Shown: positions 16,815 through 63,438 of the stretch, in pieces
Numbering within the stretch: the first letter of the stretch is position 1
Layout of the letters: each line of letters begins with the position of its first letter
From: Halopelagius inordinatus
GTDB lineage: Archaea > Halobacteriota > Halobacteria > Halobacteriales > Haloferacaceae
DNA length: 64,000 nucleotides
Direction: 5' to 3'
NCBI RefSeq assembly: GCF_900113245.1
Contig: NZ_FOOQ01000001.1
Span: 372,001-436,000, forward strand
Position numbers and translations under genes: made by a program
Notes under the pieces: model-generated
What the model saw: the letters and a program-made list of their open reading frames with translations, nothing else
The model's database searches: none
Told to the model about the DNA's origin: nothing

Positions 16815-16849
16815 AGAAGCGCCGGACGGGGACCGAACCTCGGTCGCTC
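16815..16849 (-). repeat. Degenerate second copy of the tRNA-Ser 3' end
   Basis: AGAAGCGCCGG (16815-16825) repeats the 3' end of the tRNA-Ser gene (16950-16960) 135 bp downstream of it on the tRNA strand. A damaged T-arm (ACGGGGACCGAACC) follows, and then CTCGGTCGCTC. The same GAACCTCGGTCGCTC 15-mer follows the duplicated tRNA-Val end at 55.8 kb. Confidence 0.65.
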
Positions 16850-16954
16850 CTTTCAGTCGCTTTCTGGTTCACATCCCGTCGTAACCGTTCACAGATTTCC
16901 AACCGCGTGGCTCGGCGATGAAACGCCTCGCTGGAGGGCTAGAAATCAGAGAAG

Positions 16955-17035
16955 CGCCGGGACAGGGATTTGAACCCTGGATCCCAAAGGGAACACGCTT
17001 TCCAGGCGTGCGCCTTACCACTCGGCCATCCCGGC
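16955..17035 (-). tRNA. tRNA-Ser (GGA)
   Basis: On the minus strand the sequence starts GCCGGGATGGCCGAGTGG and folds into a type II tRNA. The acceptor is GCCGGGA/TCCCGGC and the anticodon stem CACGC/GCGTG has loop CTGGAAA (anticodon GGA). The variable arm is long, TCCC-TTT-GGGA, and the T-arm is CAGGG/CCCTG. The long variable arm and anticodon identify a serine acceptor. CCA is not encoded. A degenerate duplicate of its 3' end lies at 16815-16849. Confidence 0.96.
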
Positions 17036-54094: not shown

Positions 54095-54239
54095 TCGTCC
54101 GCGGGTAGTCTGCGAATCCACTTTTCGGCCCCAGTTCGACCGGTAGTCGGGTGTCGCCCACAGAATCAGGAGCGTTCGCGTCGCTCGGCGGTCGGATTCG
54201 AAACCTCGGTCGCTTCGCTCCCTCGGTAGTTCGCAGGAA

Positions 54240-54357
54240 AATGCCGCCTCCCGGATTTGAACTTCCGAAAGACTCGCTCTGCTCGTCTTTCGACTTCCCG
54301 CTCGCTGCGCTCGCAGGAACGGGGACTGCTCGATATTCAGCCGAGTTCGGACTGTTT
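54240..54357 (-). pseudogene. Degenerate tRNA-Phe copy split by a 54-nt double-hairpin insert
   Basis: ATGCCGCCTCCCGGATTTGAAC (54241-54262) repeats the 3' end of the real tRNA-Phe (54383-54404) exactly. It breaks off in the T-loop. A 54-nt stretch with stems CGAAAGAC/GTCTTTCG and CTGCG/CGCAG follows, then GAAC is repeated. GGGGACTGCTCGATATTCAG then resumes a diverged tRNA-Phe anticodon arm. It is a pseudo-tRNA with an insert between GAAC repeats. Confidence 0.7.
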
Positions 54358-54383: not shown

Positions 54384-54457
54384 TGCCGCCTCCCGGATTT
54401 GAACCGGGGACAGCTCGATCTTCAGTCGAGTGCTCTCCCAGTCTGAGCTAAGGCGGC
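54384..54457 (-). tRNA. tRNA-Phe (GAA)
   Basis: The minus strand begins GCCGCCTTAGCTCAGACTGG and folds into a 74-nt tRNA. The acceptor is GCCGCCT/AGGCGGC, the anticodon stem CTCGA/TCGAG has loop CTGAAGA (anticodon GAA), and the T-arm is intact. A pseudo-copy lies 142 bp away on its 3' side. Confidence 0.96.
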
Positions 54458-55573: not shown

Positions 55574-55827
55574 AGAGTGTGTACGTTACGACTACGGCTG
55601 GGCTTACAGTTATCCCTTACTAAGTAGGGCATTTAAGTCAGATGCGCTCGCGGGGCCGCACGCGTGTTCTCAAAAACAGTCTCTCCTTCAGTTCCCCCTG
55701 AACTAACGATAACTGATTGAGTTACCGATAATCGCTTAATATTATGGGTATAAACGAATATATAGTTTAGTGAATGACAATCTGAAATACCCAGAGCCCT
55801 CTGTCGATTATTTCCCGGCAGGAAGTG
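55574..55827. other. AT-rich intergenic region before the tRNA-Val duplication
   Basis: The region 55690-55800 is strikingly AT-rich for this genome, with TTAATATTATGGGTATAAAC and ATATATAG among others and short repeats of the type AACGATAACT/ACCGATAAT. It could hold the HalOD1 promoter or be foreign DNA. No gene is seen. Confidence 0.6.
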
Positions 55828-55862
55828 AGTGGGCTCGGGCGGATGTCGAACCTCGGTCGCTC
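55828..55862 (-). repeat. Second copy of the tRNA-Val 3' end
   Basis: AGTGGGCTCGGGCGGA (55828-55843) is identical to the tRNA-Val 3' end at 55949-55964, 121 bp away. It is followed by a damaged TGTCGAACC and then CTCGGTCGCTC, the same 15-mer (GAACCTCGGTCGCTC) as in the tRNA-Ser region. Between copy and gene lies GACGACACA...TGTGTCGTC, a long stem. Confidence 0.75.
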
Positions 55863-55950
55863 ACTCCGTTCGCTCCCTGCTTCGAATCCCCGTCGCCCAC
55901 TCAGACGACACAGACTCCTCGCTACGCTCGTCGTTTTGTGTCGTCAGAAG

Positions 55951-56023
55951 TGGGCTCGGGCGGATTCGAACCACCGACCTCGTCCTTGTAAGGGACGCGT
56001 CATAACCCCTAGACTACGAGCCC
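55951..56023 (-). tRNA. tRNA-Val (TAC)
   Basis: The minus strand starts GGGCTCGTAGTCTAGGGG and folds into a 73-nt tRNA. The acceptor is GGGCTCG/CGAGCCC and the anticodon stem CGTCC/GGACG has loop CTTACAA (anticodon TAC). T-arm and discriminator A are normal. A partial duplicate of its 3' end lies 121 bp downstream. Confidence 0.96.
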
Positions 56024-56109
56024 GCATCTCGATTCTACTTCCACGGCGGCATAACGGTTTCCAATTCGCTCGCCGGAATCCTTACGCGCGTCCCGTTCTA
56101 TCTCCGTGT

Positions 56110-62583: not shown

Positions 62584-62717
62584 CCCCGGATACGGACCGG
62601 TTCGATGCCCTCAGGGACGAAAACTCGCTGTCGGTGGTTTCTGTGGCCTTCGCTTCGTTCGGCAACGCTGAAACGACTCGTCGCTTCGCTCCTCACGTAA
62701 CGTCTCGCAGAAACGTC

Positions 62718-62800
62718 CTGACGGAGTCCCACGCGAGCGAACGCGAGCGTGGGGCAAGTCAGGTCGCGAACGAAGTGAGCGTCCTGACGGAGATTTGAAC
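62718..62800 (-). repeat. tRNA-Arg 3'-end repeat unit, first copy
   Basis: An 83-bp unit almost identical (one change, at 62766) to those at 62892 and 63299. It begins with the last 9 bases of a tRNA-Arg 3' end and contains a hairpin CCCACGC...GCGTGGG. A second stem GTCAGG...CCTGAC with inner TCAC/GTGA in the other copies follows. It ends in a second, longer tRNA fragment that turns into non-tRNA sequence (GAACCCAGTCGCTCCCTG). Confidence 0.75.
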
Positions 62801-62891
62801 CCAGTCGCTCCCTGTTCAAATCTCCTTGGAGGAGTTTCGCGAGGCGCAGGCTCTTGGCTTCGCTCGTCGTGTAGCGCCTCGCAGAAACGTT

Positions 62892-63031
62892 CTGACGGAG
62901 TCCCACGCGAGCGAACGCGAGCGTGGGGCAAGTCAGGTCACGAACGAAGTGAGCGTCCTGACGGAGATTTGAACTCCGGTCCCTGGCTCCGCAAGCCAAG
63001 AGGATAGTCCACTACCCTACCAGGACTCACT
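62892..63031 (-). repeat. 140-bp repeat containing tRNA-Arg copy 1
   Basis: Identical over 140 bp to 63299-63438 (offset 407). It consists of a 3'-end fragment of tRNA-Arg, the 54-nt double-hairpin insert, and the complete tRNA gene. Confidence 0.8.
62954..63026 (-). tRNA. tRNA-Arg (GCG), copy 1
   Basis: The minus strand starts GTCCTGGTAGGGTAGTGGAC and folds into a 73-nt tRNA. The acceptor is GTCCTGG/TCAGGAC with a final G-T pair, anticodon stem TTGGC/GCCAG, loop TTGCGGA (anticodon GCG). The T-arm CCGGAGTTCAAATCTCCG is intact. It is identical to copy 2. Confidence 0.95.
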
Positions 63032-63150
63032 TCCGGATACTCCTCGTTTACTTAAGACGGTTACGATGTATGCGCAGAGAGCGACCACCCGCCGTCGATG
63101 GTGTCTCTGCTACTCGAACGTATCTCTGATTCCACTCGTCGCATAACCCC

Positions 63151-63180
63151 TCGTAGAAATGTCCCGACCGATGTTTGAAC
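63151..63180 (-). repeat. Diverged tRNA-Arg 3'-end copy without the hairpin insert
   Basis: TCGTAGAAATGTCCCGACCGATGTTTGAAC aligns to TCGCAGAAACGTCCTGACGGAG joined directly to ATTTGAAC. It lacks the 54-nt insert and the second tRNA-end copy present in the other units, so it resembles an empty site (shown here in pieces because of length). Confidence 0.6.
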
Positions 63181-63298
63181 TCACCGAGACTCGCGTTACT
63201 CGTCTCGTCTGCCCAACTCTTCTCGGATGAGTCAACCTCCTCGGCAGAGGCGAGAGACACAGAGGTCTCTCGCCGTCTTGCCTCGGTAAAATAACGTC

Positions 63299-63438
63299 CT
63301 GACGGAGTCCCACGCGAGCGAACGCGAGCGTGGGGCAAGTCAGGTCACGAACGAAGTGAGCGTCCTGACGGAGATTTGAACTCCGGTCCCTGGCTCCGCA
63401 AGCCAAGAGGATAGTCCACTACCCTACCAGGACTCACT
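63299..63438 (-). repeat. 140-bp repeat containing tRNA-Arg copy 2
   Basis: Exact duplicate of 62892-63031. The flanks differ, so duplication or gene conversion was limited to this block. Confidence 0.8.
63361..63433 (-). tRNA. tRNA-Arg (GCG), copy 2
   Basis: Identical to copy 1 in all 73 positions and in about 60 bp downstream. Both copies have all stems intact, so both may be functional. Redundant tRNA-Arg(GCG) is unusual in a haloarchaeon with otherwise single tRNA genes. Confidence 0.95.

Follow-up and report, generated by a model that had tools for sequence, protein, structure and literature searches.

Why should the same 15-mer follow two different tRNA genes? In the window analysed here, a 64,000-nucleotide stretch of the Halopelagius inordinatus genome, GAACCTCGGTCGCTC occurs on the plus strand at 16835-16849, next to tRNA-Ser, and again at 55848-55862, next to tRNA-Val. 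The first-pass annotation reported this identity, together with variants near tRNA-Phe (AACCTCGGTCGCT, 54202-54214) and tRNA-Arg (GAACCCAGTCGCTC, 62797-62810), and all four are exactly where it placed them. It took the 15-mer for one end of a mini-element that targets the T-loop. Within the window, near-matches with up to three mismatches are no more frequent than expected by chance (8, vs 9.8 in shuffled sequences). The weight therefore rests on the exact copies and their positions, and we moved the test to the whole genome.

The whole genome (G000; 3.53 Mb in 14 contigs) contains seven exact and two one-mismatch copies of the 15-mer, while the reversed control has none. Each of the seven exact copies follows a tRNA gene at a distance of 69-251 bp (the genes are those for Asp, Ser, Val, Met, Arg, Trp and Leu) and reads GAGCGACCGAGGTTC on the tRNA strand, the 15-mer itself being on the strand opposite to the tRNA. 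Both one-mismatch copies are more than 33 kb from the nearest tRNA gene. Under a uniform model, the probability of seven of nine copies falling within 400 bp of a tRNA gene in the same sense is about 3e-17. These counts and positions rule out chance or GC bias, and the enrichment just 3' of tRNA genes that had been anticipated is borne out, rather than a scatter unrelated to them. The tRNA-Trp gene contains an intron; it was missed by the Rfam search and found by ARAGORN. A further motif, CGAGCGNAGCGAG, has 30 copies in this genome (14 in the reversed control), eight of which are just 3' of tRNA genes by comparison with the tRNA list. As the exact 15-mer is present in just five of 40 relatives, it underestimates the family and was rejected as its marker; we instead used a covariance model (R1), built from the hairpin sequences of this genome and its sister species (G001).

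Anatomy of the repeated unit

On the tRNA strand, the 3' end of the tRNA is followed by a variable hairpin (H1) and a second hairpin (H2); next come a direct repeat of the tRNA's own sequence, T-arm (GGTTC) through acceptor, and finally the flank. The relevant features of the window are listed below, with bit scores from R1.

55950..56023, minus strand: tRNA-Val (TAC) (ARAGORN; Rfam RF00005)
55891..55949, minus strand: H1, the variable hairpin segment directly 3' of tRNA-Val, tip GAGCGTAGCGA (sequence reading, tip scan)
55840..55890, minus strand: H2 of tRNA-Val, inverted T-arm + cap CAGGGAGCGAACGGAGTGAGCGACCGAG + T-arm, containing the 15-mer (59.8 bits)
55848..55862, plus strand: the 15-mer, the 3' arm of the Val H2 on the antisense strand (sequence search)
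55829..55852, minus strand: direct duplicate of the tRNA-Val 3' end, T-loop to acceptor (alignment)
16954..17035, minus strand: tRNA-Ser (GGA) (ARAGORN; Rfam)
16829..16877, minus strand: H2 of tRNA-Ser, with the 15-mer at 16835-16849 (43.4 bits)
16819..16839, minus strand: diverged duplicate of the tRNA-Ser 3' end (sequence reading; score 8, under the alignment threshold)
54384..54457, minus strand: tRNA-Phe (GAA) (ARAGORN; Rfam)
54321..54350, minus strand: partial tRNA-Phe copy, anticodon-to-T-stem part (sequence reading)
54263..54320, minus strand: two-hairpin insert exactly 5' of GTTC in the partial tRNA-Phe copy (sequence reading)
54242..54262, minus strand: partial tRNA-Phe copy, T-loop-to-acceptor part (alignment score 21)
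54193..54245, minus strand: degenerate H2 at tRNA-Phe, with the AACCTCGGTCGCT variant (19.6 bits, E 0.021)
62953..63026, minus strand: tRNA-Arg (GCG), copy 1 (ARAGORN; Rfam)
63360..63433, minus strand: tRNA-Arg (GCG), copy 2 (ARAGORN; Rfam)
62790..62824, minus strand: short H2 at tRNA-Arg, a near-perfect T-arm palindrome (GAGATTTGAAC...GTTCAAATCTC) (34.4 bits; 11/11 inverted match)
62779..62800, minus strand: duplicate of the tRNA-Arg 3' end (alignment score 22)
62714..62726, minus strand: acceptor-only duplicate of tRNA-Arg (alignment score 13)
63295..63307, minus strand: acceptor-only duplicate of tRNA-Arg, between both Arg genes (alignment score 13)

H2 consists of an inverted T-arm, a cap (CAGGGA...GACCGNG) and a T-arm, with the consensus GGGATTYGAA-N-CAGGGA-(inner stem)-GACCGNG-GTTCRAATCCC; the 15-mer is its right arm, made up of the end of the cap and the start of the T-loop. 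The 15-mer had been described as following a duplicated T-loop. The T-loop is indeed duplicated, but the 15-mer is antisense, running from the duplicated T-loop back toward the tRNA; sequence beyond GAACC is, as proposed, not derived from the tRNA. The units are ~80-135 bp long, non-coding and bounded by 22-24-bp direct core repeats (T-arm/acceptor), and occur singly or in tandem arrays 3' of tRNA genes, with even spacing in some (111 bp in G073, 102 bp in G157). In 27 of 53 units, no fewer than 9 of 11 positions of the inverted T-arm match, vs 0.46% of shuffles.

A downstream duplicate of the 3' end (score at least 12) follows 21 of the 46 tRNA genes in G000 and 25 of the 44 in its sister. 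Just one tRNA in G000 has an upstream duplicate; judging from the alignment scores, we take this tRNA for a member of the tandem tRNA-Arg pair. Across both genomes, 13 duplicates lack TTC and mostly comprise the acceptor part only. In units of a second type (loci L129, L133, L137, L139 and L009), the duplicate is confined to the acceptor end (TCCC...), often with a near-perfect hairpin such as GTCCCGTTCACTACGTTCACGGGAC ahead of it. We consider the unit anatomy and its linkage to tRNA genes close to certain.

Two further arrangements were seen. The tRNA-Phe copy, which extends from the anticodon arm to the 3' end (54242-54350), is split right before the GTTC of the T-loop, and a comparable split tRNA-Met copy lies ~8.3 kb behind tRNA-Met in the same genome (L123:8300-8387). 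The two tRNA-Arg (GCG) genes (62953-63433) are 407 bp apart, and their nearly identical trailers suggest a tandem duplication that included the trailer.

Distribution among haloarchaea

In G000, R1 gives 27 matches with E values up to 1, of which 20 are behind a same-strand tRNA; this holds for all 19 matches with E<0.02, at 27-321 bp 3' of the tRNA. Since the model was trained on G000 and its sister, only the remaining genomes are independent. Among 145 sampled genomes of the class Halobacteria, 137 have an H2 match (E<=0.001). Inspecting 30 loci, one per genome, revealed a same-strand tRNA 31-249 bp upstream in 29, the exception being one (L197) with no tRNA within 1.5 kb. A phylum-wide sample gave matches in 19 of 119 genomes, all in the same order; 80 of the 119 are known solely as match-free.

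Searching 84,980 species genomes independently for an exact pattern turned up 46 matches, located in 45 stretches. Five of these were rejected as family members, being inside real bacterial tRNA-Trp genes of the Nomurabacteria type (L081, L087, L098, L104 and L108), where GAGCGACCGAGGTTCRAATC is a coincidence of the anticodon-to-T-arm sequence. All others have haloarchaeal names or are euryarchaeal MAGs, and 38 of these 41 lie 35-333 bp downstream of a same-strand tRNA. In a closer set of nine genomes, from which the 18 lowest of 96 matches (<=28.9 bits, many of them opposite-strand palindrome readings) and one duplicate locus of 47 matches were omitted, 119 of 124 H2 are within 400 bp of a tRNA. 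Without G000 and its sister, the figure is 75 of 78 among the matches listed; as some were skipped, for example six partial (11-40) matches in G053, it holds for the better matches.

Structure of the H2 hairpin

Across 26 aligned H2 sequences, 89.4% of the cells pair, and 11 of the 17 pairs have changed on both sides. Such changes occur in 43 cells, vs 11.8 in shuffles (none of 500 reached 43), and sliding the partner abolishes the signal. Because a well-matching inverted T-arm was the basis for picking the alignment rows (A1), the choice favours the outer helix. The innermost pairs played no part in it, and all four of these cap pairs have changed on both sides. The 15-mer is thus one arm of a covarying hairpin rather than the sequence-fixed end of an element that the first-pass annotation had supposed; the cap varies freely while its pairing is kept.

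The caps have two Watson-Crick pairs alternating with G-A/G-A positions and mostly end in GNA triloop tips. A three-base loop is found in 68 of 95 scored stems (GNA in 48 of the 68), and GNNA in nine of 17 four-base loops. GNA and GNNA loops on G-C pairs form very stable DNA mini-hairpins, according to the accessible text of work by Hirao and co-workers (PMC4686876, PMC6479982). Most H2 caps are in the same tip class as these d(GCGAAGC)-type mini-hairpins, although the available part of PMC4686876 presents them as an aptamer DNA motif and not a genomic family.

Under RNA energy rules, all 12 H2 sequences folded have z values of -3.7 to -6.6, compared with -2.2 to -6.1 under DNA rules, and the RNA value is the more extreme in 10 of the 12. 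The window's Val H2 has z values of -3.16 (RNA), -1.61 (DNA, tRNA strand) and -0.49 (DNA, other strand). Its H1 (DNA fold of 55891-55952) is not significant, with a z value of -0.98. The tRNA strand also has 73 G-T pairs vs 43 A-C pairs, tallied over the first 78 rows of alignment A2 together with alignment A3. From the fold values and the G-T excess, the tRNA strand is likelier to be the one that would fold, whether as DNA or as RNA.

This brings in the main rival to a mobile unit, namely that H2 acts as RNA in the pre-tRNA 3' trailer, where it would sequester the duplicated T-arm and acceptor, and so keep them from misfolding with the tRNA, or serve in processing, termination or protein binding, the duplications having arisen by ordinary recombination. 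The covarying fold on the tRNA strand, the RNA folds that reproduce the drawn structure (z -3.2 to -6.6) and the preference for G-T over A-C pairs would all fit such a role. However, the tips are mostly GNA triloops, which belong to a stable DNA mini-hairpin class in the text available to us (PMC4686876), and about half of the tRNA genes in G000 and its sister have no unit. Nor does any Rfam family match: with Rfam 15 at gathering score, only five tRNAs match within the window, and a permissive scan of 55700-56100 gave nothing credible for H2. Taken with the loci discussed below, we find an RNA role rather unlikely.

Differences in the presence and order of units

The two tRNA-Tyr genes can be compared between the sister genomes, which are two species of one genus: neither has a unit in G000, and both have one in G001. 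The alignments extend through the tRNA, break off one base past it and pick up again at GTTC, the extra DNA in between measuring exactly 103 bp in one pair and 118 bp in the other; in G001 the old trailer has been pushed behind the second core. As the new DNA sits between the intact tRNA 3' end and a second copy of that end, the tRNA-Tyr gene is not broken. The idea of a T-loop-targeting mini-element holds to this extent: empty and occupied sites differ by exact insertions with a breakpoint at the GTTC of the T-loop. From the sequences, the difference could be either a gain in G001 or a loss in G000. The T-loop itself reads TTCAATT in both unit-free genes (L019, L021) and TTCAAAT in the sister genes with units (L150, L151).

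Units also differ in order and content elsewhere. The order at tRNA-Leu differs between G000 and its sister, and at tRNA-Val in Haloferax the H1 types are swapped between related species (loci L174 and L176). Among seven Haloferax genomes, H2 at tRNA-Val is kept in six and missing in one. In four of the Haloferax Val loci H2 is nearly constant while its flanks have diverged, a further point in favour of an RNA role; the exact insertion point in the T-loop is left unexplained by such a role.

Local arms and recurring caps

The arms of H2 follow the tRNA that they stand behind. The 3' arm matches the T-arm of its own tRNA at 10.7 of 11 positions, compared with 9.1 for other tRNAs of the same genome; the corresponding values for the 5' arm are 7.9 of nine and 6.9. 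This tells against part of the mini-element reading, since the flanking stem copies the T-arm of whichever tRNA it stands behind.

The caps, by contrast, recur at different tRNAs. In one genome (G049), the cap GGAGCTTTGCTCC occurs at five (Arg-CCG, Lys-TTT, Leu-TAG, Trp and Arg-TCT); at three of these the H1 is similar as well, and the cap is absent from the examined loci of other genomes. Across nine genomes, there are nine pairs in which two different tRNAs of a single genome share an identical cap, vs 2.9 when permuted (12 of 2000 permutations as high), and caps from the same genome have a mean identity of 0.670 vs 0.638 (0/1000). Between genomes, caps behind the same tRNA likewise show a slight excess of similarity over chance (0.660 vs 0.635; 7/1000), so vertical descent contributes. 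The spread of arbitrary caps such as GGAGCTTTGCTCC is again left unexplained by an RNA role in the trailer.

Recurring caps also bear on a passive origin, in which slippage during replication or repair, promoted by the quasi-palindromic T-arm and the mini-hairpins, would duplicate the tRNA 3' end and trailer in tandem with no dedicated enzyme. Such slippage would fit the even tandem spacing of 111 bp and 102 bp, as well as the frequent reappearance of trailer sequence beyond the final duplicate (Ser, Trp, Pro, Met and Arg). We nevertheless consider it quite unlikely: the H1 inserted at the tRNA-Tyr loci is unrelated to the old trailer, different tRNAs have caps in common, and copying from the adjacent strand would not yield a conserved cap frame with its G-A positions.

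Relation to larger elements and known systems

The accessible text of PMC8371274, from which we also took the archaeal recombinase families and att sites, describes tRNA 3' ends as a usual integration target. The units could accordingly be relics, that is, att copies left after integrative elements inserted at a tRNA and were then deleted. Five large elements with such bounding repeats are indeed found in the two sister genomes: four of ~4.7-10.8 kb in G000, at tRNA-Glu, Ala and two Thr, with clear attR repeats (L123-L127), and one of ~10.4 kb at tRNA-Leu in G001. However, none of the five has an H2 beside its attR, and old units lie beyond the attR at Ala (G000) and Leu (G001). A plain attR with old units beyond it indicates that the units are separate from the large elements, and we rejected the units as att ends of these. 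The unit size and cap frame are moreover conserved class-wide, leaving the already weakened relic explanation improbable.

The resemblance to tyrosine-integrase elements at tRNA genes (SSV, pNOB8, SNJ2) lies in the insertion into the 3' part of the tRNA, the restored tRNA and the downstream repeat of its 3' end. The units differ in being ~100 bp long, too short to hold an integrase gene, and in having a hairpin that mirrors the T-arm, which is absent from the large elements here. A search for Phage_integrase (PF00589) gave nine match rows in G000, two of which are one 391-aa frame; no recombinase was linked to the units. Genes with an integrase domain adjoin the tRNA-Met, Glu and Ala genes of G000.

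Integron attC arrays are similar in that short units with one structured site apiece stand in tandem at a primary site whose position is fixed, and in that one strand folds. In contrast to integrons, the units are gene-free, no linked integrase was found and the core differs; H2 is a putative recombination site. The core boxes of integron attC sites are GTTRRRY and RYYYAAC, and the unit core GTTCRAAT departs from GTTRRRY by a C at the first R position.

Another comparison is with the PATEs and SMR-A described in Haloquadratum (PMC3119063). In the accessible part of that paper, these are haloarchaeal, non-coding, palindrome-related and about 50-110 bp in their short forms, similar in size to our units, and the mobilisation of SMR-A is unclear. 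The same text has SMR-A targeting the palindromes of IS605-type elements and PATEs, whereas the units here flank tRNAs; it also ties partial tRNA copies to prophages. The units might then be single-strand transposons of the PATE or IS200-IS605 kind, moved by a Y1 transposase. Two hairpins per ~100-bp unit, a non-coding sequence and a fixed folded strand would all agree with this, as would the occurrence of PATEs in a haloarchaeon. Yet PATEs and SMR-A cause no target duplication in the text available (PMC3119063), while the tRNA-flanking units have 22-24-bp direct core repeats. Y1_Tnp has no match in six of 14 hairpin-rich genomes (G000, G001, G009, G105, G053 and G066) and is present in six of eight genomes without a model match. 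Dependence on a Y1 transposase is unsupported by this distribution, and we regard such a transposon as very improbable.

Viruses and plasmids offered no source either. A viral origin was rejected, as the three viral-contig matches are all coding sequence without H2 or tRNA, and phages and plasmids gave no credible full-length H2 match. Our literature searches, whose scope excluded most subscription papers, returned no description of this family, and tRNA-trailing hairpin cassettes appear to be previously undescribed.

A possible mechanism

Our preferred, though tentative, explanation is that the units are non-autonomous cassettes of ~100 bp that enter and leave by recombination at the T-arm, the folded H2 being the putative site. 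We favour it because of the linkage to tRNAs, the covariation, the class-wide spread, the stems matching the local tRNA, the insertion or loss at GTTC, the arrays and the recurring caps. Recombination between the 22-24-bp T-arm/acceptor core copies would add, remove or reorder units. By analogy with the folded attC of integrons or the attP of CTX phage, the folded H2 on the tRNA-sense strand may mimic the T-arm duplex and so form the recognised site. A recombinase of the host or of a resident element might act in trans, leaving the tRNA intact, and after a move to another tRNA the arms would be brought into line with the new one. If a cassette from a foreign tRNA were inserted by a strict Campbell mechanism, the acceptor stem would be exchanged; spread between tRNAs would therefore take an extra step, either conversion or target copying.

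Several points count against this cassette model: no recombinase is linked to the units, RNA rules outdo DNA rules in 10 of 12 H2, no virus or plasmid copy was found, the tRNA-Tyr difference may be a loss, and changes of order can also result from unequal crossover in an A-B-A array. The units are putative mobile elements, and the first-pass interpretation as a mini-element is partly supported. A stronger version, in which a class of cassettes defined by its structural cap is near-universal in Halobacteria, moves between tRNAs and rewrites its arms and repeat to match the target T-arm, seems doubtful to us.

If the units are indeed such cassettes, a frequent cause of turnover downstream of tRNA genes has been overlooked in a model archaeal class. 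They would account for many of the partial tRNA copies in Halobacteria, and would offer a manageable system for testing site-specific recombination based on hairpins in Archaea. Even if the units prove to be RNA-based or passive, these covarying structured elements of nearly all sampled Halobacteria form a new class for annotation, complete with a covariance model, and stand behind roughly half of the tRNA genes in G000 and G001.
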